A stretch of DNA of 64,000 nucleotides from Nostoc linckia FACHB-104. Lineage in GTDB: Bacteria; Cyanobacteriota; Cyanobacteriia; Cyanobacteriales; Nostocaceae. The notes below the pieces were generated by a model. The model ran no database searches. It was not told the DNA's origin and saw only the letters and a program-made list of their open reading frames with translations. The DNA is taken from NCBI RefSeq assembly GCF_014696615.1, contig NZ_JACJQJ010000015.1:62001-126000 (forward strand). The letters run 5' to 3'. This document shows positions 11,192 through 63,283 of the stretch, one piece after another. The position numbers and the translations under genes are program-made. How positions within the stretch are numbered: position 1 is the stretch's first letter; each line of letters begins with the position of its first letter.

Positions 11192-12010
11192 ATGAATTTC
11201 TCGTCAGCGCGACAATATTTTTACCAGGAGATTCAGCAGCCTGACGAGCATATCGACCTGGTAAAGGCAGCTTTATATATTGCCCAGGAAGAATATCCTC
11301 AGCTTGACCTAGAAGAATACCTCAATGCCTTTGAGACGATGGCCTTGGAGTTACAAGAACGCTTACCTGATTCACCCTACCCGCTGCGGATTATTCAAAG
11401 TATTAATCAATATCTCTACAATGATTTAGGATTTGCGGGCAATAAAGCAGACTACTACGATCCGCGCAACAGCTTTTTAAATGACGTGATTGAGCGGCGG
11501 CTAGGGATACCTATCACCTTGGCATTGGTTTATATGGAAGTGTCCCGCCGGATTGATTTCCCCATGATGGGTGTAGGAATGCCTGGACATTTCCTCATCC
11601 GCCCAAATATTGCAGAGATGGAGGTTTTTGTCGATGCATTCAATGGTGGTGAAGTTTTATTTGCCCAAGATTGCCAGGATAGGCTGTCTCAGATGTTTCA
11701 GCAACCTGTAGAGCTAAAGCCAGAATATTTAGCTACCGTGAGTCATCGGCAGTTATTGGCTCGCATACTCACAAATCTCAAGTTTATTTACCTCAAAAAG
11801 CAAGACTTAGAAAAAAGCCTCGCCGCAGTAGAGCGCATTTTACTATTATTTCCCGGCATAAGTTTAGAATTACGCGATCGCGGTTTAATTTACTATCAAC
11901 TCGGTTACTATCCCCAAGCGGCTGACGATTTACAAACTTATCTGGCAAAAGTTCCTGATGCTGAAGATTCTGGAGCCATTCGCCGCTTACTTGCCGAATT
12001 GGGTAGATAA
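11192..12010 (+). CDS. SirB1 family (transglutaminase-like plus TPR) protein
   Basis: About 272 residues from ATG 11192 (a TTG two codons earlier is possible). The middle matches the SirB1/transglutaminase-like family: YYDPRNSFLNDVIERRLGIPITLALVYMEVSRR and GVGMPGHFLIRP. In this group the usual catalytic Cys of true transglutaminases is not obvious, and none is seen here. The C-terminal quarter contains TPR-like helices (LERDRGLIYYQLGYYPQAADDL region). Function is not established for the family. It is divergent from atpD and monocistronic. Confidence 0.75.
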   Translation: MNFSSARQYFYQEIQQPDEHIDLVKAALYIAQEEYPQLDLEEYLNAFETMALELQERLPDSPYPLRIIQSINQYLYNDLGFAGNKADYYDPRNSFLNDVIERRLGIPITLALVYMEVSRRIDFPMMGVGMPGHFLIRPNIAEMEVFVDAFNGGEVLFAQDCQDRLSQMFQQPVELKPEYLATVSHRQLLARILTNLKFIYLKKQDLEKSLAAVERILLLFPGISLELRDRGLIYYQLGYYPQAADDLQTYLAKVPDAEDSGAIRRLLAELGR

Positions 12011-12839
12011 ATCTTGGCAATCAATCGGGATTGAAAGAGAGCAGAGGAAGCTGTCCCAATACAAGAAGTTGCACAGGCATTGCATAAAATTGAGACTGGG
12101 ATTTTTACTCAGCACTCAGCAAGTTCAAGCTCGGCCAATCAAGATAAAAGCTCTTTTCTCCAGCCCCTAAGCCCTATTTTCAAAACAGAGTAGGAAAGAG
12201 CAACGAGAAAATTAACTAGAAAATTCTTCTATGCTCCCTCTTCAAAAACGCCACGTCTAAATTGGAATACAGATTTGTCGGGTTTTATACCATATAGGAA
12301 AATTTTATCTCATTGGTATTTGTAAGCTTTTATTATTTATATCCCAATCACAAATCGAGATAAACCCGTATGGTTCAATATTTCCGGAAGAGTCTATATC
12401 TCAAGACCTTTACTACCAAATAAAAGCCCAGGATTTTTATTCAATCTCGTAGAGTACTAGGAAAAATAGGTCTTTAAAGGATTGTTAAACTTTTATTAAC
12501 AAAAATAAATATTAATTTAATATTAAGTTTATAAGATTAAAAAAACAGAGATTTAATATAAAAGATTCACTAAATGTAAATTTCTATAATAGTTAATTTC
12601 TGACACAACTATGCAATTGGCGGAGAATCATATAATATTTGATTATTCACAAATATATACTGTTTACAGTATATTTTCTATTGTGATTAACTATGCAGTA
12701 GAGCATTCAAAATGTCTAAATTAGATATAATCATCAATATTTAAGTGTTGTTTTATATGTCAAGTTTAGGCTCAAATGTCTGTTAATTAATATTCCAATA
12801 ATTCGCTGGAATGTTTTTTCATAATTATTAATATCTATC
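12011..12839. other. AT-rich intergenic region
   Basis: No credible gene. At 12288-12319 ATACCA and TGGTAT form short inverted ends around 20 bp, similar to the ends of the 5936-6035 element. The rest is AT-rich sequence with no recognised signal. Confidence 0.35.
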
Positions 12840-12994
12840 CTGACTTTTCACGGGAAGTCCTCAAGTCTCCAAAAAGCGTAGCTTTTTCCACAGCCTCATT
12901 CTCAATAACTCTAGGTTAATGAAAATAGCTAACGGAGAAATCAGAGCTTGGGAAACCATCAAAATTACCTTTTCCACATGCCGTGAAAAGTCAG
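12840..12994. mobile_element. MITE, 155 bp, 14-bp inverted ends and 9-bp target duplication
   Basis: Ends are CTGACTTTTCACGG (12840-12853) and its exact complement (12981-12994). ATATCTATC occurs immediately outside both ends (12831-12839 and 12995-13003), a perfect 9-bp target-site duplication. There is no ORF. An internal hairpin AAAAAGC/GCTTTTT lies near 12873-12889. This is a non-autonomous element that must have been moved by a transposase encoded elsewhere. Confidence 0.85.
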
Positions 12995-13201
12995 ATATCT
13001 ATCAAGCTAACTTGAGAAATATTTTTATAAATATCTCTCAAGTTAAGAAACTATGACTTACAACTAACAATATTGGTAATTGCATAAAATCAAAATGTCA
13101 CAGCAAGCCCTAAGTAAGTAAAATATCAAATAAAAATAAATTAAAATACTTAGATAGAAAAATCATGCTGATTAGTTATATATTAAATCAGGTTATTGAT
13201 T

Positions 13202-15877
13202 ATGCAAATTTCCAGGATATTACTACAAGCTAAAAATACACCATCTACCATAACAGAATCTACTATGCTTATCTTGATGGTTGGTTTATGCATCTACTTA
13301 GGAGGCAGAATAATTGCCTTATATTTGTCCAATTGCCGTTCACAAAAAGTTGAAAATATCAGAAAAACTTCTTCTGGGAAAGTCTTAGGAACCAATACCC
13401 AAGAAATCATATTAACTAATGAGAAAAACCCTAATTTATTCTTAATGAATAAGCAATTTCCGGCATCAGAAAATGGTAAAGCCCATCAATTGAGCCAGTC
13501 TGTAAAAGAATTAGCTTCTAATTGTGGCACTTATTATCTAGAAGCGCTTGCTTCCATTGAACAGTCGTTGCTGAATTTTGATAAACGACTCAGGTGTTAT
13601 ACAGAAATTCTACAAATATTGGGACAAGCTTGTCAGGTTAGTCGTGTATACATATTTGAAAATTATCTTGATGATGATGGCGACTTAATCATGCATATGC
13701 AATCTGAATGGTGCGCTGAAGGTATATCATCCAAAATTGAAAACCACCTTTGGCACAAGCTATCTTATACAAAATTCTGCCCACGCTGGTTAAAGTTATT
13801 AGCACGTGGTGATATCGTTGCTGAGACAATTACAGAATTGAGCGAAACAGAAAGTCAGGCTTTAGGACTACAGGATGTTTTGACAATATTGATTTTACCA
13901 ATCATTGCCAAAGGTAATTTTGTTGGTTTTATTGGATTTGATAACTGCAAAGAAGCACAGATTTGGGAAGCCAAAGAAACAGCATTTTTGCAAGCCGTAG
14001 CAGGTGTACTTTCTCTAGTACATGAGCGTTTATTAGCAGATAATGCTCTCAAGACAGTAATTCTAGAAACCCAAGATTCTGCTTATCAGTTAGAAAATGT
14101 AGTACAAGAACGCACAGCTGAATTGCACAGAGAAATTGCGGAGCGCAAGCGGATACAAAAAGAACTAGAGAAATCACTGTCTTTGCAATGGGCGACTTTA
14201 GAATCTACTGCTGATGGCATCTTAGTAGTAGATAATCAAGGTAAGATTGCAGGCTTTAATCAAAAGTTTCTGCAAATGTGGCGTATTCCGGAGTCATTAA
14301 TCACTTCCGGAAATTACAAAGAAGTACTGAGATTGGCGATGAAACAGCTAGAAGCGCCAAAACAGTATTTTGCTACTATTAGAGAATTATACTTTAACCC
14401 AGACACACAGCTTTATGATGCGATCGCCTTTAAAGATGGCAGAGTCTTAGAGCGCTACTCCCAACCTCAGCGCATTAACGGCAAAATTGTCGGTAGAGTC
14501 TGGAGTTTTCGTGATGTCACAGCACATAAATTAGCAGAAGCCAAAATCCGTCATCAAGCTTTACACGATCTGTTAACGGATTTACCTAACCGAGTACTGT
14601 TTAATGAGCGCCTGTCACAAGCATTAGCACAAGCGCAGAAAAATCTTAGCAAACTAGCGGTGTGTTTTTTAGACTTAGATCGCTTCAAAATTATTAACGA
14701 TACACTAAGTCATGCAGTAGGCGATCAATTATTGCAAATTGTAGCTCAACGTCTGATAGACTGTCTGCGGGATATTGATACTATAGCGCGCTGGGGAGGC
14801 GATGAATTCACCCTAATTTTGCCAGAAATTAACGATACTCAAGAAGTTACCAAGATTCTAGAACGCATTTTGGCAGCTTTTAAACCAGTATTTGAAATCG
14901 AAAACTACCAGTTGCATATTAGCGTCAGTATTGGTATTGCACTTTATCCTATACATGGTCAAGATGCCGAAACTTTGATTAAACATGCTGACATAGCACT
15001 ATATCGTGTCAAGTCTCAAGGACGTAATCATTACCAGTTCTATAACTCAGCCATCAATTCTGGTTCTTCAGAATTGTTAACTTTAGAAAATAGCTTGCAC
15101 TCTGCCTTAGAACGCCAAGAATTTGAAGTTTACTATCAACCACAGGTAAATATTACCACAGGTGAAATTACCAAAATAGAAGCATTACTACGTTGGCGAC
15201 ACTTAGAATTAGGCTTAATCCCACCCGCAAAGTTTATTCCCCTAGCTGAAGAAACTGGATTAATTATCCCCATTGGGGAATGGGTGTTAAGAACTGCTTG
15301 TGCTCAAAATAAAGCTTGGCAAGATGCACTCAATCTGCACTCACTTTCTGTAGCTGTGAACCTTTCTGCACGACAATTTCAGCAACCAAACTTAGTAAAT
15401 ATGGTGCAGCAAATATTGTCAGAAACTCAATTAAGCCATAAATGTTTGGAGCTAGAAATTACCGAAAGTATTGCCATGAAGAATGTTGAGTTCACTAAAA
15501 GAATTTTAAGTGAATTAAACGCTTTAGGTGTTTCTATATCTATAGACGATTTTGGCACCGGATATTGTTCTCTCAGTTATCTGAAAAATTTTCCTATTCA
15601 TTGCTTAAAAATTGACAGATCTTTTGTGAGAGATTTGTCTGATGATAATCATGATGCTGCCATCACAACTGCAATTATTGCTTTAGCACATGGATTAAAG
15701 CTTGCAGTTGTGGCTGAAGGTGTAGAAACAGAAGAGCAACGCAACTTATTACGACTTCTAGATTGCGAACTCATGCAAGGCTATTTATTTAGTCGTCCTC
15801 TATCAGCTGAAGACACTACAAGACTACTACAAAAATCTAAATCCCGTCGTATTAATCCTTCTTTTTTAGTAGCTTAA
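13202..15877 (+). CDS. Membrane-anchored GAF-PAS-GGDEF-EAL protein (c-di-GMP turnover)
   Basis: 891 residues from ATG 13202 (a TTG lies two codons upstream). A membrane helix occupies about residues 20-42. A GAF-like domain (about 125-275) precedes a coiled coil ending ERTAELHREIAERKRIQKEL. A PAS domain spans about 330-440. The GGDEF domain has RWGGDEF (about 532-536), with RDID exactly five residues upstream, the product-inhibition I-site. The EAL domain starts with IEALLRWRH and has LEITESIAM, DDFGTGYCSLSYL and KIDRSFV. Both catalytic signatures look intact, so it could make or break c-di-GMP. The signal sensed is unknown. Confidence 0.88.
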   Translation: MQISRILLQAKNTPSTITESTMLILMVGLCIYLGGRIIALYLSNCRSQKVENIRKTSSGKVLGTNTQEIILTNEKNPNLFLMNKQFPASENGKAHQLSQSVKELASNCGTYYLEALASIEQSLLNFDKRLRCYTEILQILGQACQVSRVYIFENYLDDDGDLIMHMQSEWCAEGISSKIENHLWHKLSYTKFCPRWLKLLARGDIVAETITELSETESQALGLQDVLTILILPIIAKGNFVGFIGFDNCKEAQIWEAKETAFLQAVAGVLSLVHERLLADNALKTVILETQDSAYQLENVVQERTAELHREIAERKRIQKELEKSLSLQWATLESTADGILVVDNQGKIAGFNQKFLQMWRIPESLITSGNYKEVLRLAMKQLEAPKQYFATIRELYFNPDTQLYDAIAFKDGRVLERYSQPQRINGKIVGRVWSFRDVTAHKLAEAKIRHQALHDLLTDLPNRVLFNERLSQALAQAQKNLSKLAVCFLDLDRFKIINDTLSHAVGDQLLQIVAQRLIDCLRDIDTIARWGGDEFTLILPEINDTQEVTKILERILAAFKPVFEIENYQLHISVSIGIALYPIHGQDAETLIKHADIALYRVKSQGRNHYQFYNSAINSGSSELLTLENSLHSALERQEFEVYYQPQVNITTGEITKIEALLRWRHLELGLIPPAKFIPLAEETGLIIPIGEWVLRTACAQNKAWQDALNLHSLSVAVNLSARQFQQPNLVNMVQQILSETQLSHKCLELEITESIAMKNVEFTKRILSELNALGVSISIDDFGTGYCSLSYLKNFPIHCLKIDRSFVRDLSDDNHDAAITTAIIALAHGLKLAVVAEGVETEEQRNLLRLLDCELMQGYLFSRPLSAEDTTRLLQKSKSRRINPSFLVA

Positions 15878-60543: not shown

Positions 60544-61686
60544 ATGGCAAGAGCAGCAATATCTACCACTCGCAAAGCCAAGTCCAAATCTGTGTCTACG
60601 TCCTCTCTTCCTATGTGGGCTGATGATACAGAATTGTTAGGATTGGTGTTTGACCTTGAGGCTATTAGTTCTACTTCCCTATATTCGCAGTACACCATTG
60701 GACTTCATGCCTGGTTCCTAGACCAAGTACGACAATTCAATCCAGAACTTTCGGCTTATCTCCATGATGGAGAATCAGAAAAGCCTTTTAATATATCGGC
60801 GCTGGAAGGTCAACTCGTTCCTAGTGGTAGACAACTGCAACTAGAAGCAAAGCAGATTTATCACTGGCACGTTAATGCCTTATCTCCCAGAGTGGCGCAA
60901 TTTCTGCGTGAATGGTTAACCCAACTGCCACAAACTTTAGCTTTAAGAGATGCACCCTTGCAAATCAAACAGGTGAGTATTGCCCATCCACCCACAACCT
61001 ATGCACGATTGTTGCAGTCATCTGTAGAGAAACAAACTAACGTCAGTCTCAGCTTTGTTTCACCTACCAGTTTCCGCCGCAAAGGTCATCATTTCCCGCT
61101 TCCTGTGCCTGTAAATCTCTTCCACAGCTATTTGCGACGTTGGAATGACTTTTCAGGGATTCCCATAGAAACAGAAGCTTTCCTTGATTGGATAGATGAA
61201 GGAGTGATTATCCACCAGCATCGCTTAGAATCAGTAAAAGTGGCAGCTGGTAAACGCGGTTCTGTGACTGGCTTCACAGGGGCTATTTCCTGCGGGTTGA
61301 GTAAAGCTGCTTTAGCTAATACAGAATTTACTCGCTTATTTTATGCCTTAGTCCGACTTGCGCCTTACTGCGGTACAGGACACAAAACCACCTTTGGACT
61401 TGGACAAACGCGCTTAGATTGGTTAGAACCGGAACCAGCTACACCTACGCAGTTACTTACAAATCTCTTGGGGGAAAGGATTACAGAATTGACAGAGATA
61501 TTCACTGCCCAACGAAAACGCACAGGAGGCGATCGCACTGATAAAATTGCTGCAACCTGGGCGACAATCCTGGCAAGGCGCGAAATGGGAGAATCTTTGC
61601 AAGTGATAGCGGAAGATTTAGAAATGCCCTATACTACCGTGAAAACTTATGTCAAATTGGCGCGCAGGGCGTTGAAGCAGGAGTAG
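60544..61686 (+). CDS. cas6: Cas6-family endoribonuclease with C-terminal helix-turn-helix
   Basis: 380 residues. Cas6 features: VSLSFVSPTSFRRKGHHFPLPVPVNLF, then RWNDF, GSVTGFTGAISCGLSKA and the glycine-rich APYCGTGHKTTFGLGQTRLDWL. Cas6 cuts CRISPR transcripts within repeats. Residues about 330-380 (IAATWATILARREMGESLQVIAEDLEMPYTTVKTYVKLARRAL) form a sigma-region-4-like helix-turn-helix that is not part of Cas6 itself. No other cas gene or array is in the window. The function may be CRISPR processing in trans, or a separate regulatory role. A plain Cas6 length would be about 300 residues. Confidence 0.8.
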   Translation: MARAAISTTRKAKSKSVSTSSLPMWADDTELLGLVFDLEAISSTSLYSQYTIGLHAWFLDQVRQFNPELSAYLHDGESEKPFNISALEGQLVPSGRQLQLEAKQIYHWHVNALSPRVAQFLREWLTQLPQTLALRDAPLQIKQVSIAHPPTTYARLLQSSVEKQTNVSLSFVSPTSFRRKGHHFPLPVPVNLFHSYLRRWNDFSGIPIETEAFLDWIDEGVIIHQHRLESVKVAAGKRGSVTGFTGAISCGLSKAALANTEFTRLFYALVRLAPYCGTGHKTTFGLGQTRLDWLEPEPATPTQLLTNLLGERITELTEIFTAQRKRTGGDRTDKIAATWATILARREMGESLQVIAEDLEMPYTTVKTYVKLARRALKQE

Positions 61687-61918: not shown

Positions 61919-63283
61919 ATGGCTATCGCCACCATTAATCCTGCCACTGGGGAGACACTCAAGACTTTTGAGTCGCTAAATGATCAAGAAATTGCTGCGA
62001 AGCTAGATTTAGCTGGTCAGGCTTTTGAGCATTACCGCAAAACTAGTTTTAACGAGCGATCGCAATGGCTTATTAAAGCTGCAGAGATTTTAGAGCAAGA
62101 GAAGGCAGAATTTGCCAAGTTAATGACCCTGGAAATGGGTAAGCCTTTAAAAGCTGCGATCGCAGAAGCGGAAAAATGTGCGGCTGTCTGTCGCTACTAT
62201 GCAGAAACCGCTGCTGATTTCTTGGCTGATGTTTCTGTAAAAACCGATGCCAGTCAGAGTTTTGTGCGTTACCAGCCATTAGGTGTGATTCTCGCAGTCA
62301 TGCCGTGGAATTTCCCTTTCTGGCAAGTATTTCGCTTTGCTGCGCCAGCACTGATGGCGGGTAATGTCGGTTTACTTAAACACGCGTCTAATGTACCGCA
62401 ATGCGCCTTAGCAATTGAAGATATTATTCGCCGTGCTGGGTTTCCTGAAGGTGCTTTTCAAACACTATTAATCGGTGCAGCGAAAGTAGCCGATTTAATG
62501 TCCGATGAGCGAGTCAAAGCTGCTACCTTAACCGGAAGTGAACCTGCTGGTGCATCCTTAGCAGCGGCGGCGGGCAAACAAATTAAAAAAACAGTCCTAG
62601 AATTGGGTGGCAGCGATCCATTCATCGTGTTAGAGAGTGCTGATATAGAGACAGCAGTTGTCACAGCTACTACAGCACGAATGTTGAATAGCGGGCAATC
62701 ATGTATAGCAGCGAAACGTTTCATTGTTGCAGAAGCGATCGCTGACAAATTTGAAAAACTGTTGTTAGATAAATTTCTGGCTTTAAAAGTTGGCGATCCC
62801 ATGCAACTAGACACCGACTTAGGCCCATTGGCAACTCCTGATATTCTCCAGGAATTAGACCAACAAGTCCAAACTGCTGTTCAAAGCGGCGGTAAAGTTC
62901 TCACAGGTGGAAGTCGTTATCGTTGTCCTGGTAACTTTTATCCCCCTACCATCATCACAGACATTCCCCAAGATAGTGCGATCGCCCAAGAAGAATTTTT
63001 TGGGCCAGTAGCCTTATTATTCCGTGTTCCCGATATTGACGCAGCCATTCAACTAGCTAACGCCACACCCTTTGGCTTAGGCGCAAGCGCTTGGACAACC
63101 AACGACCAAGAACGCGATCGCTTAGTTACAGAAATTGAAGCTGGTGCAGTATTTATTAACGGAATGGTGAAATCCGACCCCCGTCTACCTTTCGGCGGTA
63201 TCAAACGTTCTGGGTATGGCAGAGAATTGAGCATTCAGGGAATACATGAGTTTGTCAATGTTAAAACTGTGTGGGTTAAATAA
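61919..63283 (+). CDS. gabD: Succinate-semialdehyde dehydrogenase
   Basis: 454 residues, a little shorter than standard ALDH, as in cyanobacterial SSADH. Motifs: AVMPWNFPFWQVFRFAAPALMAGNVGLLKHASNVPQCA, TGSEPAG, LELGGSDPFIVL and NSGQSCIAAKRFIV with the catalytic Cys. LPFGGIKRSGYGREL ends it. GGAGGT lies about 8 bases before ATG. The next gene is the ThDP-dependent decarboxylase: together they turn 2-oxoglutarate to succinate, the cyanobacterial bypass. NADP preference is usual but not shown. Confidence 0.88.
   Translation: MAIATINPATGETLKTFESLNDQEIAAKLDLAGQAFEHYRKTSFNERSQWLIKAAEILEQEKAEFAKLMTLEMGKPLKAAIAEAEKCAAVCRYYAETAADFLADVSVKTDASQSFVRYQPLGVILAVMPWNFPFWQVFRFAAPALMAGNVGLLKHASNVPQCALAIEDIIRRAGFPEGAFQTLLIGAAKVADLMSDERVKAATLTGSEPAGASLAAAAGKQIKKTVLELGGSDPFIVLESADIETAVVTATTARMLNSGQSCIAAKRFIVAEAIADKFEKLLLDKFLALKVGDPMQLDTDLGPLATPDILQELDQQVQTAVQSGGKVLTGGSRYRCPGNFYPPTIITDIPQDSAIAQEEFFGPVALLFRVPDIDAAIQLANATPFGLGASAWTTNDQERDRLVTEIEAGAVFINGMVKSDPRLPFGGIKRSGYGRELSIQGIHEFVNVKTVWVK

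Follow-up and report, generated by a model that had tools for sequence, protein, structure and literature searches.

A 155-bp MITE of Nostoc linckia FACHB-104 and its probable mobilisation by a Tn5-like IS4-family transposase

We describe a 155-bp MITE in a 64-kb window of Nostoc linckia FACHB-104 (the whole stretch of 64,000 nucleotides analysed here, positions 62,001 to 126,000 of NZ_JACJQJ010000015.1). The element has inverted ends, its site is empty in relatives, further copies of it exist, and an IS with matching outer ends is present alongside it. Taken together, these features make it highly probable that the element is non-autonomous and is moved in trans by an IS4-family (IS50/Tn5-like) transposase from a full-length IS. 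It belongs to a MITE family that is widespread in one family of cyanobacteria and that is linked here to Tn5-like IS, whose transposase type has solved structures; the link could be used to test how non-autonomous elements make use of such an enzyme.

Results

Structure of the element and its insertion site

The features of the element and of the gene downstream are listed in Table 1. The perfect 14-bp ends and the 9-bp target duplication reported in the earlier note are both exact in the sequence. The interval given there, 12831-13003, is correct as a span that takes in both target copies, but the element proper is confined to 12840-12994. Its inverted arms (12840-12858 and 12976-12994) can be followed over 19 nt at 89% identity, the outer 14 being perfect.

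Table 1. Coordinates, in the window, of the MITE, its parts, and the downstream gene
Feature	Position	Strand	Remarks
MITE	12840..12994	+	155 bp; inverted ends, target duplication, other copies
Target site duplication, left copy ATATCTATC	12831..12839	.	Exact, 9 bp
Target site duplication, right copy ATATCTATC	12995..13003	.	Exact, 9 bp
Left terminal inverted repeat CTGACTTTTCACGG	12840..12853	+	Perfect, 14 bp
Right terminal inverted repeat	12981..12994	-	Perfect, 14 bp
Left subterminal box AAGTCCTCAA	12855..12864	+	Conserved among MITE copies
Internal TTTTCCACA box	12884..12892 (element 45-53)	+	Repeats the right-end box in the same orientation; (near-)invariant in 43 copies
Right subterminal box TTTTCCACA	12970..12978	+	Common to both candidate partner IS ends
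GAF-PAS-GGDEF-EAL gene	13202..15877	+	Domain matches; ORF listed from TTG 13196

Within the 64-kb window, the exact end 14-mer occurs only at the two ends of the element, and one further match, at 61145, carries two mismatches. Shuffled sequences gave on average 0.39 matches with up to two mismatches, and 3 of 100 shuffles gave three or more; because shuffles reach the observed count, that count alone is weak evidence. The strong evidence for the element is the empty site in relatives together with the other copies.

A comparison with the empty site in relatives, which the earlier note had proposed, was run by searching 3 kb around the site against eight genomes of the genus, that of N. linckia FACHB-104 included. 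In all four genomes in which the site could be aligned (G002, G003, G005, and G007), it is empty and holds a single target copy, which is exactly ATATCTATC in the first three and agrees at 8 of 9 bases in G007, and the alignment breaks precisely at the boundaries of the element. The long match in G001, G004, and G006 covers the upstream gene only; the site is not alignable there, and these genomes are outside the four. Since the site is empty in the alignable relatives, the insertion is specific to the lineage of N. linckia FACHB-104 among the genomes tested, and the element entered an AT-rich intergenic region after the split from the sequenced sister species.

The insertion had been called young. 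This holds for the site, with its four empty counterparts and exact duplication, but in sequence the copy is not the youngest one. The same genome contains two other, mutually identical copies, each with 8 differences from it over 155 positions. G002 likewise has a pair of identical copies, which show only four differences from that first pair. For the host, this is an ordinary insertion among others, and a fairly recent one.

Copies in the genome and a partner IS

The genome (G000, 9.4 Mb; the window lies within contig C57) holds three full copies of the MITE, the window copy included, and the two others are 95% identical to the latter; the lack of other copies that the earlier note had named as an argument against its reading is therefore not what the search gave. 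Eight additional matches cover an end only, among them the ends of the IS on contigs C121, C29, and C153 and single ends on C97 and C169. The MITE had also been held to be unrelated to the other elements of the window. Neither a second copy nor a match to the partner transposase described below is present on contig C57, which supports that reading as far as MITE copies and this transposase are concerned.

The search for a matching IS yielded a 2.1-kb element of the same genome whose outer ends match those of the MITE. The copy on C121 is complete (2097 bp), is flanked by the 10-bp duplication GATCATACAA, and contains ORFs for a 475-residue IS4-family transposase and for a second product of 159 residues. 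The copy on C29 is likewise complete (2099 bp) and 93% identical to the C121 copy; its flanks do not match, and it has a transposase ORF of 483 residues and an ORF of 81 residues in place of the second one. Contig C153 has an outermost piece of such an IS at each of its two ends (101 and 77 bases), with the 10-bp duplication GCGCTAGTTT, and the middle of this copy is not assembled.

The partner transposase matches the NCBIfam IS4 model (1.1e-97), the Pfam Tn5-type DNA-binding domain (5.3e-10), and Tn5 transposase structures (1.3e-43). The DNA-binding and DDE models score above the Pfam cut-offs and the Tn5 dimerisation match below its cut-off. The YREK motif, as defined in a passage of PMC2266710, is present in the translation.

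Over the first 30 bases, the right end of the MITE has 28 and 26 in common with the two ends of the C121 IS, and the left end has 21, with only the outer 16 unbroken. Similarity between the two interiors beyond the ends amounts to matches of 8-10 bases only. Because only the outermost 16 bases of the left end are shared, simple internal deletion of the IS copies found here does not account for the MITE. Judged by its sequence, the MITE has ends in common with an autonomous IS of its own genome and is, in that sense, of type I as described in a passage of PMC3542288. The identification of the element as a MITE is thus borne out: it has terminal inverted repeats and a target duplication with an empty site, is short and devoid of coding capacity, is multicopy (at low number), and has an IS with matching outer ends.

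Proposed mobilisation of the MITE

In the proposed mechanism, a full-length IS would supply the IS4-family (IS50/Tn5-like) transposase to the MITE in trans. By analogy with Tn5, the enzyme would bind the ends of the MITE, excise the element, and paste it elsewhere with a target duplication of 9-10 bp; the right end of the MITE is of the type carried by the IS of its own genome. Target duplications were scored in 90 MITE matches, related subfamilies included, that were retained after 7 of 97 had been dropped (length outside 120-160 or too few shared words). In favour of the proposal, they are exact in 60 (10 bp in 30, 9 in 24, 8 in 5, and 11 in 1) and carry one mismatch in 11; they are unrecognisable in the remaining 19, which counts against the proposal.

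The partner and the MITE coincide poorly. Sixty genomes of the family were searched for the transposase at E 1e-100, fragments being uncounted, and 15 of these bear the MITE (1e-20) among the matches listed. A full-length transposase of at least 75% identity is found in only one of the 15, that of N. linckia FACHB-104 itself, and three of the MITE-bearing genomes (G077, G082, and G087) have transposase relatives of 52-53%. Two genomes, G065 and G017, have a close transposase and no MITE match at 1e-20 among the matches listed. The partner may be easily lost, or distant relatives may serve, or another IS may be the true partner.

The same 60 genomes provided 26 loci with the left end of the MITE. 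Neither the transposase nor its second ORF was found within the 1.5-kb flanks at any of them, and an autonomous element with this left end was therefore rejected for these loci. A partner end lies 127-155 bp away at 20 loci and 245 and 347 bp away at two, and is lacking at four; among these six loci, L160, L161, L163, and L166 match the MITE well beyond the end, and L174 and L177 match at ends only.

A different Tn5-like IS, either unsampled or extinct and with a AAGTCCTCAA end, could have been the source and main mover of the MITE, which would make the 2.1-kb IS a mere relative. We regard this as a possibility to be kept in mind, if a rather doubtful one. It would account for a left end that differs from that of the 2.1-kb IS, for interiors that are alike only in the short matches described above, and for the close partner in only 1 of 15 MITE-bearing sampled genomes, and a second Tn5-like IS clade in the family does have AAGTC equally far from its ends. 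However, the right end has only 17 and 18 of 30 bases in common with that second clade, compared with 28 and 26 for the 2.1-kb IS, and the 26 left-end loci from the 60 genomes gave no transposase within their 1.5-kb flanks. Mobilisation in trans by a Tn5-like transposase from a full-length IS remains our preferred explanation.

The downstream GGDEF-EAL gene

The distance of about 200 bases to a GGDEF-EAL gene given in the earlier note is as stated, and the GGDEF and EAL domains were found. From the sequence, the ATG at 13202 is a likelier start than the listed TTG at 13196, which places the end of the MITE approximately 200 bp upstream of the gene. It is unlikely that the insertion alters the expression of this gene: the position would suit such an effect, as some 200 bp separate the MITE from the gene and the intergenic sequence to either side of the insertion aligns in relatives, but a promoter scan gave no gene-directed promoter-like site inside the MITE. 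The scan placed three weak sites between MITE and gene and one opposite-strand site that overlaps the left end and is directed away; with 12 sites in total versus 6.7 expected, it is weak evidence either way.

Two other repeats were observed in this region. Just to the right of the insertion, window positions 13008-13045 form an inverted repeat of 17 nt (94%) with a 4-nt loop, which is largely kept in the relatives that lack the MITE and was not scored as a terminator. The stretch at about 12040-12130 of the window (approximately 855-944 of the 3-kb query) has many matches in the same genome and in others of the genus, at about 70-95% identity; it is probably a further dispersed repeat in the interval that separates the two genes.

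Distribution of the MITE family

At E 1e-20 or better, the MITE matches at least 70 of 217 genomes of the same family (that of N. linckia FACHB-104 included) and at least 22 of 56 genera. At most three candidates were scored per genome in this survey, which entails that copy numbers are lower bounds and that some genomes may be missed. Among the 129 matches listed, 94 run end to end (query 1-155), with a length of exactly 155 bp in 71 of them (range, 150-162); the 35 partial matches were left out of this length count.

Among 58 genomes near that of the window, which is itself included, 17 match at E 0.001, several of them through an end alone; all 17 belong to the same family, and none of 24 genomes from other families of the order matches at this threshold. 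When 291 genomes were drawn from the order, with at most two candidates scored per genome, at least five matched at 1e-10, two of which are in other families and match weakly. Scanning genome contigs with a pattern that could detect lengths of 127 to 155 bases only gave 76 stretches, the titles of which are those of filamentous cyanobacteria such as Nostoc, Calothrix, Scytonema, Fischerella, and Tolypothrix. Matches on plasmids come from seven records, all cyanobacterial by name. Phages gave no match to the MITE, and neither did Escherichia coli genomes, as expected for a negative control. At L026:1501-1646 lies a related element of 146 bp, which is flanked by a 9-bp duplication; its end sequence matches 14 places in G031.

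Conservation of the interior

Leaving aside L060 (43% identity), the 44 distinct sequences of 155 bp gave a gap-free alignment of 43 copies, with a mean column identity of 89% and invariant interior columns. Among the conserved blocks are AAGTCCTCAA, next to the left end, and TTTTCCACA, which occupies positions 45-53. We read the conserved interior as sequence that is kept through transposition and, to judge from the sequence, perhaps bound by the transposase; descent from recent source copies could explain part of the conservation.

The interior was also considered as a coding remnant and as an RNA or hairpin, and both candidates were rejected. None of the 43 copies is stop-free in any frame, and a three-base periodicity is not clear. 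The alignment predicts 14 terminal pairs only and shows no covariation. Single-strand folds are better than those of shuffled sequences, with z values of -4.1 to -5.1, and shuffling also destroys the inverted ends; compared with 60 column-shuffled cores per strand, the aligned cores showed no gain (z = 0.07 and 1.60). At its gathering threshold, Rfam gave no match to the interval 12000-13400.

One speculation, in which we have little confidence, is that the MITE is chimeric and asymmetric and under selection for mobilisation. An IS-type end, a MITE-specific end, and the extra TTTTCCACA box would then make it a better substrate than the IS, with interior and length kept as a transposition substrate in at least 22 genera.

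That the host has recruited the 155-bp unit for a function of its own (as a regulatory RNA, attenuator, or protein-binding site), and that the unit is not merely kept by transposition, is very improbable: the length of exactly 155 bp in 71 of the 94 listed end-to-end matches, the gap-free alignment with its 89% identity and invariant interior columns, and the folding advantage over shuffles would fit such a role, but the pairing is limited to the 14 terminal pairs, with neither covariation nor a gain over column-shuffled cores, no frame is open in the 43 copies and no periodicity clear, the Rfam match is absent, and relatives do without the element at this site.

Comparison with known systems

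Passages of the open literature contain no description of this 155-bp element that we could find; the 13-base end occurs in two plant papers on SSR markers, which was taken as chance. Going by such passages, the family is a further MITE of known kind, possibly already in print, which we set beside Nezha by description only. Nezha (Zhou et al. 2008) is a cyanobacterial MITE for which, in the passage available from PMC3049150, ISNpu3-like elements are the proposed mobiliser, in the context of inverted-repeat similarity; its likeness to the present element, as described there, is that of one cyanobacterial MITE to another. The MITEs of Anabaena sp. 90, as described in a passage of PMC3542288, range from 77 to 541 bp and were assigned to type II as no IS there shared their ends. 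Compared by that description, they resemble the present MITE in their overlapping size and in belonging to the Nostocales, whereas the present MITE has an IS with matching outer ends.

The partner IS resembles IS50 (Tn5) of the IS4 family, as far as the source passages describe it, in its transposase models, its YREK motif, its ends starting with CT, and a duplication of about one helical turn. For the IS50 subgroup, a table in PMC2266710 gives a size of 1350-1550 bp and direct repeats of 8-9 bp. In contrast to these tabulated values, the partner IS is 2.1 kb long (2097 and 2099 bp), carries on C121 an additional ORF of 159 aa, and has a 10-bp duplication (C121 and C153). It agrees with the terminal pattern of the subgroup at five of the seven positions listed in that source, with GG rather than CA at positions 13-14. 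Since size and repeats are off the subgroup values, we file the partner IS in the IS4 family as Tn5-like and not firmly in the subgroup.

Observations on Tn5-like IS

The product of the 159-aa second ORF passed no Pfam or NCBIfam cut-off and has relatives in 41 plasmid records, for example at L033:2566-3045 (+), L153:2971-3360, L192:1971-2360, L151:3004-3444, and L190:2064-2444. In the records that were opened, some of these relatives lie beside IS4 transposases and some have no annotated transposase adjoining. Others are found 42 bp downstream of a transposase annotated as ISKra4, in different surroundings. The product is apparently an accessory protein common to two IS families.

The second Tn5-like IS clade (L183, L184, L185, L186, and L187) is about 1.5 kb long, with ends CTGACTTTTCCCGTTAAGTC in most members. 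The N-terminal DNA-binding part is off-frame from the catalytic part in four of the five relatives, the junction being close to a YEF motif that is conserved. In L187, there is an in-frame TGA at that place, followed by a later frame change. The absence of frameshifts is given as a hallmark of the IS4 family in a passage of PMC2266710, and NCBIfam includes a model named IS4_FS_Nterm.
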